From NCBI GenBank assembly GCA_947504275.1, contig CANNHA010000007.1:1-41891 (forward strand): a DNA stretch of 41,891 nucleotides. The letters are read 5' to 3'. The DNA is from Flavobacteriales bacterium. GTDB taxonomy: Bacteria > Bacteroidota > Bacteroidia > Flavobacteriales_D > Sanyastnellaceae. The notes under the pieces were generated by a model that had not been told where the DNA came from, made no database searches, and saw nothing but the letters and a program-made list of their open reading frames with translations. Made by a program: the position numbers and the translations under genes. This document shows, piece after piece, positions 29,954-41,891 of this stretch (its first letter is position 1; the number at the start of each line of letters is the position of its first letter).

Positions 29954-31330
29954 TTATTTGAAATTCTCTTTCAAAAATTCTTCCATCTTGCTTCTAACAA
30001 TCAAACGGCTGATCACCTTTCCATTTTGATCAAGTGCAATTAAGGTTGGTGTGCTGGGCACCGGATAATGGTTATTGAATTCCTTTCTAACCTCGTAAGC
30101 CAAGAAAGTATCTTTCCATGGTTGAGGGTGCGCGTTCACATAAGTCTTCCACTCGTTAATATCTTTATCAATGGATACAGCATAAACTTCTAAACCTTGG
30201 CTGTGGTATTGATCATAAAGCCCCCTAAGAATGGGTTTGAACTCCTCGCAGTGATTGCAACTGCTCTTCCAAAAAAGCATCAAGGTCATTTTGTTCTTTT
30301 TGCAAACGTCCAAAAGAGCAACAGGCGTAGCGTTGATATCCGGCAACTTCAATGGCCAAACCTTTTTACCAGGGGCCACCTCATTCAAGGCAGTCACTAA
30401 CTGATCATTGGCTGATTTGCTGCTATGATCCTCTGAACAATCTTGACTGTAGTGCGACAACAAATGGGAAAGTCCCTTTTCACTTTTATAACCCAACATT
30501 TTATCCAACAAATATTTGAACAGGAACTGATCTACCTCTTCCAAACCACCGCTGCGAAACATCACGCCGTCTATAAAATCAATGGCGTAGTCGTCAGAAT
30601 CTTTTTGTTGCATGTGTTTGAAATAGCGCTCCAAACTTCTGACAAATAAGTTGTGATGCAGGGCTCCGGACTTGTAATAAGGCAATTTACTAATGCCGAA
30701 CTTGATGTAGAACAAAGAATCATTCAAAGACTCGTGCTTTTCTTTTGGATAATCTGATCTTACCGGTTGATAAACCAAATCAGCGACCACATCACCCGTA
30801 AAAGTCCCTCTGTTTTGTTGAGCCATTCTGCGAGAAATTTGATTCAGTTTTGTGGTAGCCGCCTCCAGTTTAAGCAGATCAACAGGTACAGCCGTTCTCT
30901 CGGCATCAAAATCCAAGAAGGCATTCATCAATTCAACATACAACTGACTCTCGAAAGAGTTGGAAACCACCAAAGGCCTTCCATTCATTTCAGAGTAATC
31001 GATGTTCAAATTCATGGATTTGGGTTCATCCTTGTATTGGGAAATAATAAAATCAGACCAGATGACACTGTTTTTCCCTGAGGGGAATCGGAAACGGTAT
31101 TGGCCATACACGGGAGGTAAAAACTGAAAATCAACTTGACCATCTTTGTCCAAGGCTTTGTTGTCGATTTGTTTCCACTCCTGGCCATTCATGTATTCAA
31201 AAATGACCTTCATATTGCCGTTTGGCAATTGATTGAACTTGGCATGAATGTTCACATTCTGCGCAAACAACAAGTTTTGAGCTCCAATTAGGCTCAATAT
31301 AGACAACAATAAAACGGAAAATATTTTCAT
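29954..31330 (-). CDS. TlpA-like thioredoxin-fold protein
   Basis: 458 aa; signal peptide; C-terminal MTLMLFWKSSCNHCEEFKPILRGLYDQYHSQGLEVYAVSIDKD...VPSTPTLIALDQNGKVISR with a CNHC active site. Confidence 0.85.
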   Translation of the reverse strand: MKIFSVLLLSILSLIGAQNLLFAQNVNIHAKFNQLPNGNMKVIFEYMNGQEWKQIDNKALDKDGQVDFQFLPPVYGQYRFRFPSGKNSVIWSDFIISQYKDEPKSMNLNIDYSEMNGRPLVVSNSFESQLYVELMNAFLDFDAERTAVPVDLLKLEAATTKLNQISRRMAQQNRGTFTGDVVADLVYQPVRSDYPKEKHESLNDSLFYIKFGISKLPYYKSGALHHNLFVRSLERYFKHMQQKDSDDYAIDFIDGVMFRSGGLEEVDQFLFKYLLDKMLGYKSEKGLSHLLSHYSQDCSEDHSSKSANDQLVTALNEVAPGKKVWPLKLPDINATPVALLDVCKKNKMTLMLFWKSSCNHCEEFKPILRGLYDQYHSQGLEVYAVSIDKDINEWKTYVNAHPQPWKDTFLAYEVRKEFNNHYPVPSTPTLIALDQNGKVISRLIVRSKMEEFLKENFK

Positions 31331-31420
31331 GTTTTCAAGCTAGATAAAAACCATGCCGAAGATAATTCAAACCGACCATTTACTTTTTTGTTTTTTTTTT
31401 TGAGGATGAAAAAAAAGGTT

Positions 31421-31428
31421 TATATTTG
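31421..31428 (+). promoter_or_regulatory. Bacteroidota -7 element TATATTTG for tRNA-Glu, with TTTG at 31399-31402 as possible -33
   Basis: TTTG, 18 nt, TATATTTG, then 20 nt to the tRNA 5' end; fits -33 TTTG / -7 TAnnTTTG. Confidence 0.6.
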
Positions 31429-31448
31429 CATCCGCTAAAGCGAACGAT

Positions 31449-31520
31449 GGCCCGTTCGTCTAGGGGTTAGGACAGCAGATTTTCATTCTGTAAACAGGGG
31501 TTCGATTCCCCTACGGGCTA
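31449..31520 (+). tRNA. tRNA-Glu (anticodon TTC)
   Basis: GGCCCGTTCGTCTAGGGGTTAGGACAGCAGATTTTCATTCTGTAAACAGGGGTTCGATTCCCCTACGGGCTA. Acceptor, anticodon (GCAGA-TTTTCAT-TCTGT) and T arms pair; anticodon loop TT-TTC-AT. Confidence 0.95.
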
Positions 31521-31525
31521 CGAAT

Positions 31526-31555
31526 AAAAGGTATCTAACAGATACCTTTTTTTTT
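31526..31555 (+). terminator. Rho-independent terminator after tRNA-Glu
   Basis: aaaaGGTATCtaacaGATACCttttttttt. Confidence 0.85.
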
Positions 31556-31590
31556 GCCCTTTTCAAAAAAACTTGTAATATTGAAAGATT

Positions 31591-32442
31591 ATGAATGGTG
31601 ATTGGAAAAAAATACCAGCATCAGGTATCGATACTCAAGCTTGGGATCGTTGTGTTGTGCAGAACAATGGATCCATGTTCTCTTTGAGCTGGTACTGGAG
31701 TGCCCTGTTACCCAAATGGCATGGCTGGGTAAAGGGAGAATATGAGGCTGTCATGCCGGATGCTTTGGTCAAAAAATGGGGAATAATCAACAGCAATAAA
31801 ACACCTCTTTATGTGAAGTATATAGAATGCATTGGTGAAAAACTATCATTGGAGGAAAAGAAAAGCATGCTTCAAAAAATCACAGGGCAAGGTATACTAA
31901 AAGGAATACATGTTCAACCAGGAATAGAGATGAAAGGGGATGTAAAAATCCACCGCGTACAAATTGCCCCATACGTCGGCGAAAACATTTCAAGAGAACT
32001 AAAAAAAAACCTACAAAAAGCGGAACGAGAGAACTTCAAAGTTGATTTCAATCAAACCTGGGAACTTTTTGACAAGTTCATGAAACGCCACCACCCCTAT
32101 GAGTGGCCGCAAGCCCAACAAACAAAGCTTGAGCAACTCTTTCAAGCAGGTCATGAAAGAGGGATGATAAAAATAGCTGGGCTTAGTTGCGATGGCTTAA
32201 TGGTAGCCATGCAGATGTATGGCTTATTCAATGGCACCTTGTACACCATTCAGAATGCTTCAGATAGAGATTATCGAGAATTGCATGTTATGTCCTACCT
32301 GATACATCATTTGACGATGGGGATCCACAGTGAAAACATCATTAAACAAATCCATTTCATGGGCTCTAGCAACAAAAGTGTGGCTCGTTTCAATAAGAAG
32401 TTTCAGGCCACAGACTTAGAATATAGTTTCATTGCATCATAA
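31591..32442 (+). CDS. GNAT/FemAB-like acyltransferase-fold protein
   Basis: 283 aa; SLSWYWSALLPKWHGW..., ISRELKKNLQKAERENFKV, IKQIHFMGSSNKSVARFNKKFQATDLEY, resembling FemAB-like uncharacterised proteins. Confidence 0.55.
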   Translation: MNGDWKKIPASGIDTQAWDRCVVQNNGSMFSLSWYWSALLPKWHGWVKGEYEAVMPDALVKKWGIINSNKTPLYVKYIECIGEKLSLEEKKSMLQKITGQGILKGIHVQPGIEMKGDVKIHRVQIAPYVGENISRELKKNLQKAERENFKVDFNQTWELFDKFMKRHHPYEWPQAQQTKLEQLFQAGHERGMIKIAGLSCDGLMVAMQMYGLFNGTLYTIQNASDRDYRELHVMSYLIHHLTMGIHSENIIKQIHFMGSSNKSVARFNKKFQATDLEYSFIAS

Positions 32443-32669
32443 ACTCTAAGTCCATTTGAAGAGACTCTTGCCTCTTGCCGAAACGTGATTGGAAAAAAAA
32501 TCTTGCCCATCTGAGAACCTAAAACATCATTCACTCAATCAAGTGTTAATTTTTGCGTAACAATTATTTAATGCATTTCATATTGTGTTCGTATAAAAAT
32601 AACATTAAAGCGCCAATGGCTTATTCTCATCAATCTTTTTTTGCAATTGACAAAATCTCGTAACGTGAT

Positions 32670-33773
32670 ATGAAAAAAATAGTCAGTTTTTGCTTTATTT
32701 TAATGATGTCCATCCCCTCCATTGCATCTATGGAACTGGACACCTGTGCTAATCCTTTAAACTACTTTTTTGATGCCGATGGCGATGGATTTGGTAATGC
32801 GGACAATTCCCTGTTGTTATGTAATCCAATCGTTTCTTTTGTAAACAATGCCGACGATTGCATTGATAACAATGCACTCATTTTTCCTGGCGCTAATGAA
32901 GCTTGTGACGAAACGGACAACAATTGTGACGGTGAAATAGACGAGTATGTTCAGAACACTTACTATATCGATACAGATATGGATGGCTTTGGAAACGTTG
33001 ATGAAATCATGCTTGCATGTGACATGCCGTTTGGTTATGTTAACAATGGGGACGATTGCGACGACAATTTAATCCTATTTGAAGATTTGGATAGCGACAG
33101 TTACGGTGGCGAAAACCTTTCTGCATGTGGCGAAATACAAACGGGAGATTGCAATGACAATGACGCCGCCGTATTTCCATTTCAATCAGAAGTCTGTAAT
33201 GATTTGGATGACAACTGCAATGATGAAATAGATGAGTTTGTGATCAACACCTACTTTGCCGATGTGGATGCCGATGGCTTCGGAGATCCGAACAATGCAG
33301 CCTATGCGTGTGCACCCTTGATGGGATTTGTTGAAAACAGTGAAGATTGTGATGATGCCTTACTTCTTTTTGAAGACCTTGATTTGGATGGATTTGGCAG
33401 TACTAATATGGTGGCTTGTGGTTCCGCATTGGATACTGATTGTGATGACACCAATAATACTATTAACCCCAACGCAATAGAAATTCCAGACAATAATATA
33501 GATGAGAATTGCGATGGTGAAATCAGCACTCATGTAACAGAAAACAAAGCCATGTATCTGCAACTTTTCCCAAATCCAGCCAATGAATGGATTACCATTG
33601 GTTCGGCCATTAACGCTTGGAACAACCAAGTCATTATTGTCAATCAGCTGGGTCAAAAAATGTTTGATGGCAAAATTGACCGCAGCCTGCAATTAAACGT
33701 AGGCGAATGGGCCAATGGTATTTATAACATCATCATTGGCACAGAAACAGAATCTTTCATGATATCGAGGTAA
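32670..33773 (+). CDS. MopE-like putative metal-binding-motif protein with T9SS type A sorting domain
   Basis: 367 aa; signal peptide; repeated DxDGFGN...DDCxDxxxxxxPGAxExCDxxDNNCDGEIDE units; C-term LQLFPNPANEWITIGSAINAWNNQVIIVNQLGQKMFDGKIDRSLQLNVGEWANGIYNIIIGTETESFMISR. Confidence 0.87.
   Translation: MKKIVSFCFILMMSIPSIASMELDTCANPLNYFFDADGDGFGNADNSLLLCNPIVSFVNNADDCIDNNALIFPGANEACDETDNNCDGEIDEYVQNTYYIDTDMDGFGNVDEIMLACDMPFGYVNNGDDCDDNLILFEDLDSDSYGGENLSACGEIQTGDCNDNDAAVFPFQSEVCNDLDDNCNDEIDEFVINTYFADVDADGFGDPNNAAYACAPLMGFVENSEDCDDALLLFEDLDLDGFGSTNMVACGSALDTDCDDTNNTINPNAIEIPDNNIDENCDGEISTHVTENKAMYLQLFPNPANEWITIGSAINAWNNQVIIVNQLGQKMFDGKIDRSLQLNVGEWANGIYNIIIGTETESFMISR
32772..33525 (+). repeat. 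Degenerate tandem Asp/Cys-rich metal-binding repeats within the MopE-like CDS
   Basis: Recurring DADGDGFGN / DTDMDGFGN / DVDADGFGD / DLDLDGFGS, each followed by DDC and CDxxDNNCDGEID-type blocks. Confidence 0.8.
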
Positions 33774-33779
33774 TTACAA

Positions 33780-34625
33780 ATGAAAACCCTGCTGTCTGCA
33801 TTAATTATTTTGATAACTTCTGTCATTGGTGCTCAAACTTTTGAAGGACTGGATGGTGTATATATAGAACGCTACTATCAATCCAATGAAATGGATAATG
33901 GAGCCGGAAAAATCAGCGGCGAACTAAAAAACAACTCAAAAACGTACAGAATATACTTGGACTTGTCTCCAGGATATCGTTTCCAAGCAGCCTACGGGAC
34001 AACGGCACACCCATTAAGTTTCCACTCAGAATCCCTCTTCTTTAATCACGCCGGAATTGGAAATACCTATCCCAATGTAATTCCTGAAAGAAGTCTTTCT
34101 AAAAACATTACATTGTTAGACTCCTGGTTCACAGCGGGTGCTGCTGGTGAAAGTTTTATGGGTGTTCCCAAAAAGCTAGACCATGACGATAACTTGCTTT
34201 ATAAAAAATTCGAGGACAACTATTTGACCAATGATACAAAATGGATGGAATTCAGTTTGCAAGAGCGCGATGGGATGCATGGATCAAATGACTTACCTAT
34301 CGTCAATCTGTTCCAATTGGACTCGACGTCAAAACATTTGATGATGGTCACCAATTCCAATCATTTACAAATCGACAATGGTGCATGGGCGTGCTTAGGG
34401 AAAGGATCCATTGGGGTTGATTCATTAGGAACCAACTATATCTTGATTGCACAATTGACCACTGCTGGTGACTTGGATTATTCCTTAAATATCATGATAG
34501 GAACTCCCCAAGGTAGATCAATCAAATACGTATGGGACAATCCGCAGAAAGGTGAAATTTTGTGTCCCTTACTGCGCGGAACAACAAAAAAAGAAAAGAA
34601 AAAAAAGAAGAACAAAAAAAAATAA
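33780..34625 (+). CDS. Secreted protein of an unrecognised family (paralog P1), lysine-rich C-terminal tail, no T9SS CTD
   Basis: 281 aa; signal peptide; GVYIERYYQSNE...NSKTYRIYLDLSPGYRFQAAYGTTAHPLSFHSESLFFNHAG...IAQLTTAGDLDYSLNIMIGTPQG; ends TTKKEKKKKKNKKK. Confidence 0.75.
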   Translation: MKTLLSALIILITSVIGAQTFEGLDGVYIERYYQSNEMDNGAGKISGELKNNSKTYRIYLDLSPGYRFQAAYGTTAHPLSFHSESLFFNHAGIGNTYPNVIPERSLSKNITLLDSWFTAGAAGESFMGVPKKLDHDDNLLYKKFEDNYLTNDTKWMEFSLQERDGMHGSNDLPIVNLFQLDSTSKHLMMVTNSNHLQIDNGAWACLGKGSIGVDSLGTNYILIAQLTTAGDLDYSLNIMIGTPQGRSIKYVWDNPQKGEILCPLLRGTTKKEKKKKKNKKK

Positions 34626-34629
34626 AATC

Positions 34630-35718
34630 ATGAAAAATATTTACACCGTTTTCACTGGATTAAGCCTAATGGTTGGTCTTTCTTCTCAACAAGTTCAAGC
34701 ACAAGGATTGCAAGGCATTGTTGTAGAAAAATACTACGTTTCCGATGCAGCAGACTCAATTGATGCAGCTGACAATTTCGCCACTTACCCACTCCATGTT
34801 GGATCAACCACATACAGGGTTTACGCAGATTTACAAGATGGTTACAGCTTTATTCAGATGTTTGGAAATGCAGCTCATCCTCTGGAAATCCATACCACCA
34901 CCTCTTTCTTCAACGACCCCAATTATGGAGTTGCTGTTTACCAGGGAACCAGTGTAAACAACACCAAGAAAAACACACAACTGATTGACACCTATTTGAC
35001 TGTAGGTGGGGTTGCGGCTACCAAAATGGGTGTTTTGAAAACTGAAGATACAGATGGAACAATTGGAAACAACGATGGTCTTATTGCCAACGTTACAACG
35101 GCCATGGGATTGCCAGTAACAGGAACAGATGGTGTAGATGGTATGTTGCCAGGTACTCCAATTAACCCAAATATTTTAGGTATCAGTTCAGAGTTGGATT
35201 TGTTTGATCAAACACCAGGATCTGATTTTGTAACTTCCAACGGAACGATTGCGGCTTTGGGTGGCGTTACTGGCGTTACTGCAAGCAACATGGTATTAAT
35301 CGGACAATTCACCACAGATGGGATTTTTTCATTCAAACTCAATCTTCAGTTGGGAACTCCTCAAATAGGAGGAAGTGAGATTTTTGTTGCCGAGAATCCT
35401 GAGAATGGAGAATTGACTGATAGCACTTTGATCTACGAGAGCACACCAGAAGAACCCAATGGTATTTCTTATATCGGACAAAGAAACAGCATGAGCATTT
35501 TCCCTAACCCTGCGACTGACTTCGTTGTTCTTAAAAACAATATGAAACAAGCCATTGGACAAATCAGTGTTTTCAATACGACTGGATCTTTGGTGCTTTC
35601 CGAGAATACGCAACAATCCAATTTAACATTGAATGTAGCCCAATTGGCCGCCGGCCTTTATACCGTTAACATCAACAATGACGGTCATATTCAAAAACTA
35701 TCCTTCATCAAAAAATAA
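34630..35718 (+). CDS. Secreted protein of the same family (paralog P2) with T9SS type A sorting domain
   Basis: GIVVEKYYVSDAADS...STTYRVYADLQDGYSFIQMFGNAAHPLEIHTTTSFFNDP...IGQFTTDGIFSFKLNLQLGTPQ; C-term SIFPNPATDFVVLKNNMKQAIGQISVFNTTGSLVLSENTQQSNLTLNVAQLAAGLYTVNI. Start placed at ATG 34630 rather than 34552. Confidence 0.85.
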   Translation: MKNIYTVFTGLSLMVGLSSQQVQAQGLQGIVVEKYYVSDAADSIDAADNFATYPLHVGSTTYRVYADLQDGYSFIQMFGNAAHPLEIHTTTSFFNDPNYGVAVYQGTSVNNTKKNTQLIDTYLTVGGVAATKMGVLKTEDTDGTIGNNDGLIANVTTAMGLPVTGTDGVDGMLPGTPINPNILGISSELDLFDQTPGSDFVTSNGTIAALGGVTGVTASNMVLIGQFTTDGIFSFKLNLQLGTPQIGGSEIFVAENPENGELTDSTLIYESTPEEPNGISYIGQRNSMSIFPNPATDFVVLKNNMKQAIGQISVFNTTGSLVLSENTQQSNLTLNVAQLAAGLYTVNINNDGHIQKLSFIKK

Positions 35719-35722
35719 ATCC

Positions 35723-38700
35723 ATGAGAGGTCTCCTTTCCATCCTTATTTTCATTTCAATCTCCACCATTGGCTTAGCTCAGGGAGTTCTCAAAGGCAAA
35801 GTCACCGATGAGAAGGGAGAACCTGTTTTTGGTGTAGTTGTCGTGGTCATAGAGAATCAATCTATTCTGTCAAAAACAGATTTTGATGGGCTCTACGAGT
35901 TGGCTATACCCAACAATAAAACCTATACCATCAACTATGTGATGACAGGATTTAAGACTACTGTAAACACGGTTGTCTTATCTAACAACCAAACGCTGGT
36001 AAGCAATGTAACGCTTTACAGCAGCTCATATGTTGTAAAAGGACTTGACATTGTAGGTAAAGTGGCTAAGTCCAATGATACCTATATGGAAAAAGTGAAG
36101 ATGAATTCCGCAACCACCATTGATTACATCTCCTCGGAAACCATGAAAAAAACAGGAGACCAAAACGTGGTGAATGCCATTGCCAGGGTTTCCGGTGTAT
36201 CAACTTCAGGAGGATTAATCACCGTCAGGGGAATTGGAGACCGTTATGTAAAAACGACATTGAATGGTTCCCGCATTCCTACATTGGATCCATTGACCAA
36301 CAACATCAAATTGGATATCTTCCCTTCAAGTTTGATTGACAACATCATCATCACCAAAACAGCTCAATCCAATTTGGCTTCTGATTGGTCTGGTGCTTAT
36401 ATATCCGTTGAAACCAAAGATTATCCTGATCAATTGAGCATCAATGTAGAATCCCAGTTTGGTTACAATCCCCAAGTCACTTTCAAAGATTTTATTACCT
36501 CTGCCAAGAGTAAAACAGATCGATGGGGCTTTGACAATGGAATGCGCAGGAGAGAAAAGGATGAAATATTGGTCCCCAATCTCGCACCTAATACCTATGA
36601 TGAAATGGTTGCTTTGGGCCTAGGTGACTTTTATGCCAACATGGGAATTCACGGTTGGGCAGATGGAAATGCAACAGCTGACAATTACTTGGCTTTGGGA
36701 CTGGTAGAATTGGGTTTGCTTCCTGCCAATCAACTGAATAATCCCGCTGCAGTTGCAGCTGCTACGCAAGAGTATACAAGTCAATACAAACCAAAAGCAT
36801 TTGCATTGATCAACCCTGATGGTACAGATTACAACAATGGTTTTGCCAACAACTGGAATGCTCGAGTGGAAAAAGCTCCCATGAATTTTAGCCAAAACTT
36901 TAGCATTGGCAATGAAACCAAACTCTTTGGGAAAAAATTAGGCTACTTCATTGGTATGCGTTACGGCACCAATTACCGTTATGACCCTAACGGAACTTCA
37001 CAAAGAGTTGGCGATGAAACTTTGGATTACCCCATAGACCGTCAGGACTATGCCCGTATCAGTCGTGAAACCAATTCTTGGAACGTTCTGCTGAATGCCA
37101 ATTACAAACTAAGCCCCAATCATAAAATTGGGTTGTTGTATATGCCAAATATCATTGGAACCAATGATGTGGCACAATATGAAGGAAGACCATTTATCTC
37201 ACCAGATGGAATAATCGACGAGCAAGATATTTCTGTTGTCAACAACATTTTCTATGAGCAGAGAAAACAATTGATTCATCAACTGAGCACCGAACATTAT
37301 TTTCCGGAGAAAGAACTAAAAATCAACTTCAATGCTAGTTATACCAAAGCCAATAGTATTGCACCTGATTTCAAAGTGAATCAATATAGTTACAACCTAG
37401 TCAACAATGAAATTCAGGCCTACACATTTGCGCCCACTTTTGGTGAGGGAATAAGAAGATTCTATAGATACCTCAACGAAAATCTCCTCGACAGCCGAAT
37501 GGACTTCTCTCAGCCCATTCATAAGTTGAAAAAAGAAGGATTGACAAGAAAAATGTTTTGGGGAGGATCTGCGCTAAGAAACTACCGAAAAATAGACAAC
37601 GATGAGTACAAACTATTTCAAGGAAACAATCTTAATCTAGAGACATTCACTTCAGGTAATATTGACCAATTCCTAGACCCTTCCAAATTTGTAATGCGTG
37701 ATGGCACCTTGGATTATTATTACATCAGGAACAACTTTGCCAGGGATCACAGCTTTGGACAAAGCGATGTTTATAGCGCCTATGCATTCTTTGACTACGA
37801 GAAATCATCTAGTCTCAGATTAATTGGTGGATTAAGGGCTGAACAAACGGACATCTTTGTAGATGTAGACAGCTACTATGCACAGGGCTATGAGAAAGAT
37901 GATTTTAGAAGAGAGAATGTGGGTGGGTTTCCACTGGTTAATCCTGCATCCATTGAACAATTGGATCTTTTACCCAATGCAAGTTTGGTTTACAAATTGG
38001 TTTCAGATTCATTGGGACAAACCAACTTGAGATTCAACTACTCAAAATCTCTTGCGCGTCCTAGCATCAGGGAATTGAGTGATGCTGCCATCGTTGACAA
38101 TGAGTTCAGAACATTGATCTATGGAAATTCTGACTTAAAAATGGTGACCATTCACAACTTTGATTTCCGTGCAGAAACCTATTTCAAAAAAGGACACAAT
38201 GCATCGATCAGTGCTTTTTATAAGGACTTTAATAACCATATCGAAATGGGATTTGGCTCAGCGGGAATTACCTGGGACAATATTGAGAAGTCCACAGTCT
38301 TGGGATTGGAATTGGAAGGAAACATACAGATTACACGTGCATTGGAATTCAAAAGCAACGTAACATTGGTAAAATCTGAAGCAGAGTTCATCAGAAAAGA
38401 TTTACAAGTTATTGATGGTAAGAAAGTTTATACCCCTTTGGATACTTTGAGAAGGCCCATGTTTGGTCAAGCGCCTTACCTCATTAACAGTATCTTAAGT
38501 TACACCGCCGACAGCCTAGGATTGAGTGCCACTGTATCTTATAATGTGCAAGGACCGAGATTGGTTATCGCGGGTGCCATTGTGGGCAGACCTGATGTGT
38601 ATGAAATGCCACGTCACATGATTGACTTTAAAGTCAACAAAAAAATCAATGATCATTGGTCAGCCAGTCTTACCATCAGAGATATTTTAAATACAGCGGT

Positions 38701-38827
38701 CAGAAGATCTTATCAAATTGATCGCATCAATGAAGCAGGTAATATCACCAACACAGATGGCTGGTATGATTACGACAACTTCCGTTATGGTACAACTTAT
38801 CAACTTTCTATTCAGTACAAAATATGA
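35723..38827 (+). CDS. TonB-dependent receptor with carboxypeptidase-like regulatory domain
   Basis: MRGLLSILIFISISTIGLAQGVLKGKVTDEKGEPVFGVVVVVIENQSILSKTDFDGLYEL; plug GDQNVVNAIARVSGVSTSGGLITVRGIGDRYVKTTLNGSRIPTLDPLTNNIKLDIFPSSLIDNIIITKT; C-term YRYGTTYQLSIQYKI-type barrel strand. Start at ATG 35723 rather than 35678. Confidence 0.92.
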   Translation: MRGLLSILIFISISTIGLAQGVLKGKVTDEKGEPVFGVVVVVIENQSILSKTDFDGLYELAIPNNKTYTINYVMTGFKTTVNTVVLSNNQTLVSNVTLYSSSYVVKGLDIVGKVAKSNDTYMEKVKMNSATTIDYISSETMKKTGDQNVVNAIARVSGVSTSGGLITVRGIGDRYVKTTLNGSRIPTLDPLTNNIKLDIFPSSLIDNIIITKTAQSNLASDWSGAYISVETKDYPDQLSINVESQFGYNPQVTFKDFITSAKSKTDRWGFDNGMRRREKDEILVPNLAPNTYDEMVALGLGDFYANMGIHGWADGNATADNYLALGLVELGLLPANQLNNPAAVAAATQEYTSQYKPKAFALINPDGTDYNNGFANNWNARVEKAPMNFSQNFSIGNETKLFGKKLGYFIGMRYGTNYRYDPNGTSQRVGDETLDYPIDRQDYARISRETNSWNVLLNANYKLSPNHKIGLLYMPNIIGTNDVAQYEGRPFISPDGIIDEQDISVVNNIFYEQRKQLIHQLSTEHYFPEKELKINFNASYTKANSIAPDFKVNQYSYNLVNNEIQAYTFAPTFGEGIRRFYRYLNENLLDSRMDFSQPIHKLKKEGLTRKMFWGGSALRNYRKIDNDEYKLFQGNNLNLETFTSGNIDQFLDPSKFVMRDGTLDYYYIRNNFARDHSFGQSDVYSAYAFFDYEKSSSLRLIGGLRAEQTDIFVDVDSYYAQGYEKDDFRRENVGGFPLVNPASIEQLDLLPNASLVYKLVSDSLGQTNLRFNYSKSLARPSIRELSDAAIVDNEFRTLIYGNSDLKMVTIHNFDFRAETYFKKGHNASISAFYKDFNNHIEMGFGSAGITWDNIEKSTVLGLELEGNIQITRALEFKSNVTLVKSEAEFIRKDLQVIDGKKVYTPLDTLRRPMFGQAPYLINSILSYTADSLGLSATVSYNVQGPRLVIAGAIVGRPDVYEMPRHMIDFKVNKKINDHWSASLTIRDILNTAVRRSYQIDRINEAGNITNTDGWYDYDNFRYGTTYQLSIQYKI

Positions 38828-40164
38828 AAGCATTAAAATTCATTCTAGCCATCAGCTTTGGGTTATTGACTCAACTTGGCTTTAGTCAATTACAAAACTT
38901 GTTTATCGAAAAGTATTACATCAGTGATACCGATGATGCTACCGATACTACAGGTGGAATACTCCCGGAAGGTTCAACCACCTATCGCATCTATGCCAAA
39001 TTGTTGCCTGGAAGCGCTGTTTCTAAAATCTTCGGAGATGCCAACCATGCTTTTACCATCAGCAGCAGTGCGCCGTTTTTTAATCATGCCACTGAAGGCA
39101 AATCATTTGGCAGAGATTTTCTTAAACCAAGATTGGGAGAAAGCTTGGTTGCCTTGGATACTTATCTAACAATTGGTCAAGTAGCCAAACAAGGCCCCAA
39201 TTTATACTTTGGTCTTCCTAAAAATCAAGATACCAACGGTTCTTTTATCGGTGGTTCTAATAGTGATGGTGGCAGTGAAATGCTACCACAAGGTTTGATG
39301 AACAATCAAAACAGTGAAATGGGCCTAGCCCTTACCCAAGTCGATGGGATTGATACAATGGTGACGGCCGCTGGGACCTGGGATATTTTTTTAACAAATG
39401 ACTATCTTACTTTTGGCATTGATAGTACGATTTTCGGATCCATTGTGCCGGGAAATTCTTATGAAAGCAACCAATTTTTTCTAACCCCAAGTGTTCCCTA
39501 CTCTGGTGTTGTAGCAGACAGCAATCATGTTATGCTTGCTCAACTTACCACTGCTGGAGAAATTTCATTTAACATCAATTTAGAAGTTGTGTTTTTTGAC
39601 AATGAAGGAAATCTACAATCCATTGAATATGTTGCACAAGACACCCTCATTGGTGAGAATCAACAATACAACCCTTTCCTTTCCTATCCATATGCTTGCG
39701 GATGTAACGACCCCAGTTACTTGGAATACAGCCCTGCTTTCATTTGCTTTGAAGAAGGAAGTTGTCTGAACAAAGCCATCATCGGCTGCTCGGATTCTCT
39801 TGCTTGCAATTATGATCCTAAAGCCAACATCATGATGGAGGAATTATGCTGTTACCCAGGCGATTGTAACAACCGGAATATTACAGAAGTTTGTCCAGCT
39901 TTGTTGGTTAGTAATTTTGAATGCGGTCTCTATCCCAATCCTGCGGAGGATCAAGTCAGAATCAACGTGGTGCAACCAGAAAATGGAAACATCACGATTC
40001 AATGGTTCAATGCCTTTGGAACAATGATATCAACTGAAAACGTTAATGATATTGGCATTAATTACAACAACACTGTGGACATCAGTCATCTGATGCCCGG
40101 TGTATACTACATCCAAATAACGGCTCCATTGGGAACACAAATTTTGACCTTATTCAAAATATAG
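38824..40164 (+). CDS. Secreted protein of the same family (paralog P3) with Cys-rich insert and T9SS type A sorting domain
   Basis: 446 aa; LFIEKYYISDTDDATD...STTYRIYAKLLPGSAVSKIFGDANHAFTISSSAPFFNHA...LAQLTTAGEISFNINLEV; Cys-rich ACGCNDP...GCSDSLACNYDPKANIMMEELCCYPGDC; CTD LYPNPAEDQVRINVVQPENGNITIQWFNAFGTMIS...LMPGVYYIQI. Confidence 0.85.
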   Translation: MKALKFILAISFGLLTQLGFSQLQNLFIEKYYISDTDDATDTTGGILPEGSTTYRIYAKLLPGSAVSKIFGDANHAFTISSSAPFFNHATEGKSFGRDFLKPRLGESLVALDTYLTIGQVAKQGPNLYFGLPKNQDTNGSFIGGSNSDGGSEMLPQGLMNNQNSEMGLALTQVDGIDTMVTAAGTWDIFLTNDYLTFGIDSTIFGSIVPGNSYESNQFFLTPSVPYSGVVADSNHVMLAQLTTAGEISFNINLEVVFFDNEGNLQSIEYVAQDTLIGENQQYNPFLSYPYACGCNDPSYLEYSPAFICFEEGSCLNKAIIGCSDSLACNYDPKANIMMEELCCYPGDCNNRNITEVCPALLVSNFECGLYPNPAEDQVRINVVQPENGNITIQWFNAFGTMISTENVNDIGINYNNTVDISHLMPGVYYIQITAPLGTQILTLFKI

Positions 40165-40166
40165 TC

Positions 40167-40877
40167 ATGAAAAAAATAACTAGCTGTCTTATCATCTGCT
40201 CCCTGCTCATTTTGGGTTGCAACAAGGATAAAAAAGAACCGATTGAAATAGAATATGGAACTGGCGTTGACAACGACGGCAGAACATTTACCACAATCAA
40301 GATTGGCGATCAATGGTGGATGGCGGAAAATTTGGCATCCAGTCGTTTTCAAAATGAGGATACCATTCAATATCTCTCCAGAGAAAATGCACTGTCTACT
40401 TGGAATGCCCAAAATCACAGCACATATACTTTTCACAACGATTCTCTTTTCGGTTATTTGTATAACTTTCAATGTGTTGAAGACACAAGAAAAATTGCAC
40501 CCAAAGGCTGGAAAATACCGAGTGACGAAGATTGGAAAATCCTGGAAAAACACATTGGTATGAGCACTGAAGCGGCCAACGCTTTTGGCTGGAGAGGCGT
40601 TGAGGAAGCCAATTTATTGACGACGAAATATTCCAGTGGATGGCCTGAATTCAGTCCATTGTACGGAATCGATAAATATGGGTTCAATGCCAGGCCAGGG
40701 GGATGTATCACACTTTTGAATTTCATGAATACTGGAGCTAATACCGCATTTTGGTGGACGTCCACACAAGATAACAACGAGGGATATTACCGTTACATAG
40801 ACTTTCAGCAAACACGTATCTTAAGATCCAAGATATCTAAACTTTACGGAATGAGTATCCGTTGTATTAAAGAATAA
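40167..40877 (+). CDS. FISUMP-domain lipoprotein
   Basis: 236 aa; MKKITSCLIICSLLILGCNKDKK (lipobox LGC); DGRTFTTIKIGDQWWMAENLASSRF...GYLYNFQCVEDTRKIAPKGWKIPSDEDWKILEKHIG...GFNARPGGC...FWWTSTQ...SIRCIKE. Confidence 0.9.
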   Translation: MKKITSCLIICSLLILGCNKDKKEPIEIEYGTGVDNDGRTFTTIKIGDQWWMAENLASSRFQNEDTIQYLSRENALSTWNAQNHSTYTFHNDSLFGYLYNFQCVEDTRKIAPKGWKIPSDEDWKILEKHIGMSTEAANAFGWRGVEEANLLTTKYSSGWPEFSPLYGIDKYGFNARPGGCITLLNFMNTGANTAFWWTSTQDNNEGYYRYIDFQQTRILRSKISKLYGMSIRCIKE

Positions 40878-40881
40878 TGCC

Positions 40882-41526
40882 ATGAAAACGAAACATTTCA
40901 TCCCGATACTAATACTTCTTTTGAATGTATCTCATGGATACGCTCAAACAAAATCATGGAATTGGTTCTTGGCTTATTCCTATGACATCAACAATCCACT
41001 TTTTGAAACATCATCTGAAACTTTTAATGGCAAATTGCAGGGCAATAGCTCATGGGGTATGGGCCAATCCTTTGGGTTGGGTGTGGGCTATAAAGCAGGC
41101 AAAAAAATTACGCTACGTTTGGGTGCTCAATTCAAAGGCATGTCCTATAAAAACGATAGCATTGGTCTTAATGACGTTAAATTGATTGATAAAACCTTTA
41201 GAGGTGTTGAAATCCCGATTATCGTCGACTATCAGATCACTGAGAGTGGTTGGGCAATTGGAATAGGAGGACAATATTATCATGGGTTCCAAGAGAAAAT
41301 CACCTACCAACTTTTAAACAATAATCAACGACAACAAGCATTTGAAAAATCGAAGGCAACAGGATTAGGCATTCAAATGCAATTGACAAAACAATTCAAT
41401 CCTGATGATACACACATGATTGCCATTGGACTGCAAGGTCAACTTTACCCCAAGTTGATAGAAAGCAGTGATGGACAATTTGGCTTTATGAATTTAGGTC
41501 TATGCATTGGTCTTACTTTCTTATGA
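40882..41526 (+). CDS. Outer membrane beta-barrel-like protein
   Basis: 214 aa; signal peptide MKTKHFIPILILLLNVSHGYAQ; GVGYKAGKKITLRLGAQFKGMSY...GVEIPIIVDYQI...GWAIGIGGQYYHGF...LGLCIGLTFL, alternating strands with terminal aromatic/aliphatic pattern. Confidence 0.65.
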   Translation: MKTKHFIPILILLLNVSHGYAQTKSWNWFLAYSYDINNPLFETSSETFNGKLQGNSSWGMGQSFGLGVGYKAGKKITLRLGAQFKGMSYKNDSIGLNDVKLIDKTFRGVEIPIIVDYQITESGWAIGIGGQYYHGFQEKITYQLLNNNQRQQAFEKSKATGLGIQMQLTKQFNPDDTHMIAIGLQGQLYPKLIESSDGQFGFMNLGLCIGLTFL

Positions 41527-41551: not shown

Positions 41552-41586
41552 AAAAAACACTGATGTTAAGTCAGTGTTTTTTTTTT
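41552..41586 (+). terminator. Rho-independent terminator closing the 32670-41526 gene cluster
   Basis: aaaaaaCACTGAtgttaagTCAGTGtttttttttttt. Confidence 0.9.
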
Positions 41587-41718: not shown

Positions 41719-41891
41719 ATGAAAAAATTAAACAATTTGAACAAAGTCATCGCGATGGCATTGTCATTTGTTGCAACTGCTTCAGTTGCACAATCGAATT
41801 TGGGAGCTGAGTGTGGATGTCCACCCGTAGCTTCTCGTCCAGAAGTTATTGTTTCTTCTATGCCCGGTTACACTGCAATCAGCGGAACCTA
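41719..41891 (+). CDS. Secreted protein, partial (N-terminus only)
   Basis: ATG at 41719: MKKLNNLNKVIAMALSFVATASVAQSNLGAECGCPPVASRPEVIVSSMPGYTAISGT..., signal peptide; open to window end, so absent from the ORF track. Confidence 0.7.
   Translation, partial: MKKLNNLNKVIAMALSFVATASVAQSNLGAECGCPPVASRPEVIVSSMPGYTAISGT

Follow-up and report, generated by a model that had tools for sequence, protein, structure and literature searches.

An unnamed family of secreted proteins accompanies a TonB-dependent receptor in genomes of Flavobacteriales

Genes for related secreted proteins on both sides of a TonB-dependent receptor (TBDR) gene raise the question of whether their products belong to the receptor and, if so, in what capacity. 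We considered this question for a locus on a 41,891-nt stretch of DNA from a Flavobacteriales bacterium (assembly GCA_947504275.1, contig CANNHA010000007.1). This stretch, further called the window, is the entire contig C7 of the source genome. An initial annotation had described three open reading frames at 33780, 34630, and 38824, two preceding and one following the TBDR gene. It suggested that their products, here P1, P2, and P3, share a scaffold, which it could not place in a known family, and are co-evolved partners of the receptor. The coordinates are correct, as is the ATGA overlap between the TBDR stop codon (38825-38827) and the P3 start at 38824. P1, P2, TBDR, P3, and the two subsequent genes, encoding a lipoprotein with a FISUMP domain and a predicted outer-membrane beta-barrel protein (OMP), form a tight gene run with short gaps or overlap, followed by a terminator-like hairpin (Table 1).

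By sequence similarity P1, P2, and P3 are true paralogs, far past chance. In BLASTP comparisons (effective database size, 1e6 residues), the aligned regions span ~250-265 aa. The identities are 33% for P1 and P2 (E 5e-27/8e-29), 32% for P2 and P3 (E 6e-19/4e-18), and 26% for P1 and P3 (E 8e-15/2e-16), and the motifs from which the common scaffold was originally recognized fall in conserved columns. The shared region is a domain of ~250 aa, further referred to as the long form of D. The description of a three-member family holds for P1-P3 but understates the family, which has a fourth member, P4, in the same genome and extends into a far larger superfamily.

The long form of D has no match beyond the chance level in Pfam, NCBIfam, or the PDB sequences, and a Pfam scan of 101 family members yielded no match for D. 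The AlphaFold model of the P2 domain (34696-35448), built with 101 sequences, is mainly beta and highly confident (pLDDT 96.4, pTM 0.93). Nothing was found for it at E <= 1e-3 in the two libraries searched with Foldseek, PDB and viral models. The top-ranked PDB fold is the copper-binding domain of YcnI (DUF1775), but this similarity is not significant (E 0.18, probability 0.33, TM-score 0.26 on the query). Thus, the absence of a known family was borne out in all these collections, and no confident match to a well-characterized family emerged.

The family profile also detects a short form of D (~185 aa). Five genomes of the same family contain 19-50 matches each, some of them fragments. Alignment of the short and long forms has a probability of 99.8% (E 4.5e-30), the long form being distinguished by an insertion of ~50 residues. 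Across 37 family members, the short-form profile yields from 1 to 36 matches per genome. The short form has no name in Pfam or NCBIfam, and none was found in plasmids and phages. In two phylum-wide samples of Bacteroidota, all D positives came from the window's own order. Similar domains may also exist in planctomycetes; outside Bacteroidota, the coverage was a single scan of genome contigs with a narrow pattern. Judged by these profiles, D is a large unnamed superfamily, with tens of copies in some genomes (at most ~35 in relatives). We found no description of the family or the locus in the open-access literature, our coverage of which was incomplete.

The C-terminal regions indicate where these proteins may act. 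The Por_Secre_tail and TIGR04183 models of the sorting domain of the type IX secretion system (T9SS) score 51 and 47 bits in P2 and 44.8 and 32.2 bits in P3, above the curated cut-offs, and the sorting domain of P4 scores 42.8 bits. These domains suggest that P2, P3, and P4 are exported by T9SS and reside outside the cell. Pfam and NCBIfam scans of P1 gave no family match and no Por_Secre_tail/TIGR04183 domain. Its C-terminal end is lysine-rich (GTTKKEKKKKKNKKK), and at least eight Lys or Arg residues among the last 20 are seen in 12 of 45 P1 proteins from other loci versus none of 150 P2, P3, and P4 proteins. Signal peptides, as well as the lipobox of the FISUMP lipoprotein, were judged by eye.

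Strong support for a link between D and the receptor comes from comparative genomics. The order [P1][P2]TBDR[P3][FISUMP][OMP][HX][P4], where HX is a beta-helix protein, recurs in genomes of the window's own family and order. The same order, with some gains and losses, was found in 60 TBDR-bearing loci from an independent scan of genome contigs, partly covering the same genomes as the first set; the record titles name mostly metagenome-assembled genomes of Flavobacteriales, Cryomorphaceae, and Crocinitomicaceae, many of them from lakes. The TBDR keeps a fixed place between P2 and P3. The unit first described, three paralogs and a receptor, is retained but proves incomplete, as P4, HX, FISUMP, and OMP also belong to it. 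In phylogenetic trees, the grouping of D domains follows position in the locus rather than the genome of origin: the 53 P3 domains all fall into a single clade, and 38 of 46 P1 and 36 of 52 P2 domains fall into clades. This indicates that the duplications predate the genera and that the positions have separate, old roles.

Presence and absence follow the same trend. Among 100 relatives, the long form of D was found in 27, and the orthologous TBDR in the same genomes, as judged from the hit lists. In 349 genomes of the order, the long form (cut-off E <= 1e-50) is present in 56, the TBDR ortholog (at least 38% identity) in 56, and both in 55, with one exception each way (G518 and G674). The TBDR cut-off was placed where identity and aligned length fall to the level of a paralogous receptor, TBDR-B. 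The Fisher test gives p 5e-62, a nominal value since the genomes are related. Most of these genomes are metagenome-assembled and partly incomplete, so that absence from a single genome may be a gap. Comparison of genomes thus establishes homology, positional orthology, operon order, and near-perfect co-occurrence at this locus, and at the genomic level the suggestion of co-evolved partners is upheld by order conserved in dozens of loci and by co-occurrence in 55 of 56 genomes each way among the 349.

A further sign of coupling is the pattern of DNA identity to genome G002. It is 65-80% in the GNAT gene, the gene for a MopE-type protein upstream of P1, and P1 itself, rises to 92-100% over ~34.65-40.75 kb, that is, in P2, TBDR, P3, and FISUMP, and drops to ~65% in OMP. 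For other parts of the window, the best alignments to G002 show 83-88% identity. Synonymous codon differences from G002 affect 75 of 1049 positions in TBDR and 124 of 281 in P1. Compared with G004, the same stretch is 74-98% identical and less even (loci compared in G002/G004: L068, L049). From this jump in identity, the four genes appear to move as one block, and the likeliest explanation is that species recently exchanged the P2-TBDR-P3-FISUMP block but not P1.

A different view is that the D-proteins are repeat-rich adhesins or parts of a biofilm matrix, co-regulated with a TBDR of unrelated function and making no contact with it. The homologs of P4 carry Ig-like, PKD, MAM, TSP3, and MopE modules, as is typical of large surface proteins, and the short form of D, up to ~36 matches per genome, many of them within multi-domain proteins, occurs in genomes without the D-TBDR locus. 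However, this explanation does not account for the joint presence and absence of the long form and this particular TBDR lineage in 349 genomes, for the fixed place of the receptor between P2 and P3, or for the shared recombination block. We regard it as rather improbable.

What kind of partners could these be? The natural reference is the SusCD system of glycan uptake in Bacteroidota. As in SusCD, a TBDR with the CarboxypepD_reg and Plug domains has constant secreted partners, the operon is tight, and a lipoprotein is encoded nearby. In contrast to SusCD, the partners contain the D domain and are encoded on both sides of the receptor (two genes before it, one after), with T9SS tails in P2 and P3, and there is no SusD: a Pfam scan of the neighboring proteins (29954-41526) found none near the TBDR. 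The best NCBIfam match of the receptor, TIGR01782, is below the cut-off and is not a SusC model. For the receptor, the start at 35723 (MRGLLSILIFISISTIGLAQG), 4 bases past the P2 stop and giving a clean signal peptide, is more likely than the mechanical start of the open reading frame at 35678.

On balance, we favor, with moderate confidence, the explanation that P1-P4 are dedicated partners of the TBDR in a surface capture complex, similar to SusCD in function but built from different parts. P2, P3, and P4 would leave the cell via T9SS and stay on or near the surface, where P1-P4, the FISUMP lipoprotein, OMP, and HX together would form the capture complex. In the simplest case, the T9SS-exported proteins would bind either a substrate or the receptor at the outer face. 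The substrate, possibly a polysaccharide or a glycoconjugate, would be bound by the complex outside the cell and passed on to the TBDR, which would import it in a TonB-driven manner. Here, the physical complex, the direction of transport, and the kind of substrate are drawn by analogy.

Several observations weigh against a capture complex. Co-occurrence and synteny could mean a shared regulon without contact between the products. No recognized enzyme is encoded among the conserved genes, and the fold of D has no functional analog in PDB and viral models as searched with Foldseek. P1, having no T9SS tail, may be periplasmic or loosely attached. Finally, a polysaccharide is suggested only because HX resembles beta-helices of the pectate lyase type, all at E > 1e-3.

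HX itself is modeled as a beta-helix (pLDDT 84, pTM 0.88). The closest folds are those of parallel beta-helix proteins, the best match to a PL3 pectate lyase having a probability of 1.00 and E 5.6e-3. An HX homolog also adjoins the paralogous receptor TBDR-B in the same bacterial family. Both loci combine a TBDR with a homologous beta-helix protein, but the six TBDR-B loci that we read contain no D-proteins, FISUMP, or OMP. The pair of TBDR-B and HX looks like an unnamed two-gene system in its own right (L136, L137, L139, L140, L141).

All 44 complete HX proteins of the D locus end in a tail with a single calcium loop, e.g., CPTDLNxDGxTDVxDFLIFAPAFGTSCN. In a profile comparison with PDB, this tail is closest to cellulosomal dockerins (2y3n_B, E 4.5e-11) and contains the calcium-loop repeat DxNxDGxxxxxD. 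Up to ~100 matches to such tails were counted in related genomes (G007-G036). A complementary domain also exists. Our own profile detected a cohesin-like domain in 31 D-protein entries (a few being the same gene fetched twice), namely in P4 of most related genera. The Pfam cohesin model PF00963 scores above its cut-off of 24.1 bits in three P4 proteins (32.8 bits in L052, 27.5 in L056, and 27.0 in L099). Dockerin_1 was found in P4 as well (14 of 19), and the gene following P4 in relatives often begins with a cohesin-like domain.

Since most related genera have cohesin-like domains in P4, an assembly of the cohesin-dockerin type is possible. The tail of HX might plug into a cohesin of the T9SS-anchored P4 or of the next protein, or into D, so that HX hangs from the cell surface beside the receptor. 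Such docking would be a layer added to the capture complex and not an alternative to it. It agrees with the dockerin-like tail of HX and the domains of P4 and its neighbor, and with the TBDR-B loci, where five of six HX proteins lack the tail and the two that were scanned have a T9SS sorting domain instead. The numbers of D domains and tails per genome also correlate, with a Spearman coefficient of 0.91 overall, 0.80 within the family, and 0.76 on genus means, although both are features of a lineage, so that the correlation may reflect shared ancestry. The resemblance to cellulosomes is partial, consisting in the tail of HX and in the cohesin-like and dockerin domains that the P4 proteins of many relatives contain. 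HX has one calcium loop and not the two repeats of type I dockerins, and the tail from L069 has no Pfam match (PF00404); no array of cellulases was seen. Moreover, P4 of the window's own genus (L049, L064, L143) lacks a cohesin-like domain. We treat docking as a tentative possibility.

An equally tentative possibility is that the dockerin-like tail serves as another kind of C-terminal signal for sorting or anchoring, possibly a further one of the T9SS type, in which case HX is plain cargo and there is no docking layer. In a 1.2-Mb sample of the tail-rich genome G046 (L199-L258), all 22 tails are strictly C-terminal, none co-occurs with a T9SS type A tail, and no cohesin-like domain was found. 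This sample counts against docking and fits a sorting signal, as does the observation that the C-terminus of HX homologs is a T9SS tail in some and a dockerin-like tail in others. Against a signal, the tail is a dockerin-like calcium loop, closest to cellulosomal dockerins and doubled in 7 of the 22 cases, and cohesin-like domains are encoded close by in most loci.

D itself shows no detectable relationship to cohesins. Homology was rejected by profile comparison (hhalign probability 0.2%), Foldseek matches to cohesins have E 0.35-1.9, and PF00963 does not match D, which is a further difference from cellulosomes and an argument against D as the docking site. The boldest scenario, in which D domains represent a novel type of docking module for dockerin-like tails and these aquatic Bacteroidota form a cellulosome-like scaffold on their surface, anchored by T9SS and coupled to a TBDR at this locus, seems to us very unlikely.

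The locus is interrupted by the end of the window, where only the start of HX is present. Contig C49 of the source genome (G000) carries HX and P4; its similarity to the end of C7 and its gene order, as in near relatives, indicate that it continues the locus. The OMP gene, lying between two conserved genes, shows 54-57% amino acid identity to G002 and G004; its ortholog in L051 matches PF13568 (3.7e-18). A second, different OMP copy is located beside HX on C49 (L143:16319-16963). The assembly might thus contain two alleles or strains, and the protein may be a variable one of the cell surface. The gene for the MopE-type protein ends 6 nt before P1. It has an equivalent position in G002 and G004; it was found here in the window's own genus and lies outside the wider conserved locus. 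This protein shares the kind of MopE-type motif with P4 of the source genome.

Table 1. Features of the D-TBDR locus in the window and, for P4, on contig C49 of the same genome
Feature	Position	Strand	Characteristics
MopE-type protein	32670..33773	+	T9SS-sorted; three MopE-type putative metal-binding motifs; PF11617 2.5e-21, PF18962 1.5e-7
P1	33780..34625	+	Signal peptide, long-form D domain, Lys-rich C-terminus, no T9SS sorting domain
P2	34630..35718	+	Signal peptide, long-form D domain, T9SS type A sorting domain
TBDR	35723..38827	+	N-terminal CarboxypepD_reg and Plug; PF07715, PF13715 above cut-off
P3	38824..40164	+	Signal peptide, long-form D domain, Cys-rich stretch, T9SS type A sorting domain
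FISUMP-domain lipoprotein	40167..40877	+	PF09603 2.7e-38; lipobox LILGC; position conserved
OMP (predicted)	40882..41526	+	214 aa; weak PF13505; position conserved, allele divergent
Terminator-like hairpin	41552..41582	+	13 pairs plus T-run; ends the P1-to-OMP gene run
HX beta-helix protein	41719..41891	+	Start only, truncated by contig end
P4	G000:C49:11445-14348		967 aa; D domain, MopE motifs, T9SS tail

In summary, an unnamed superfamily of secreted domains gains its first functional context, a near-strict partnership of D with one lineage of TonB-dependent receptors. Should these partners prove to act in capture at the cell surface, the locus would represent a second architecture in Bacteroidota beside SusCD, one in which cargo of T9SS serves a TonB transporter.

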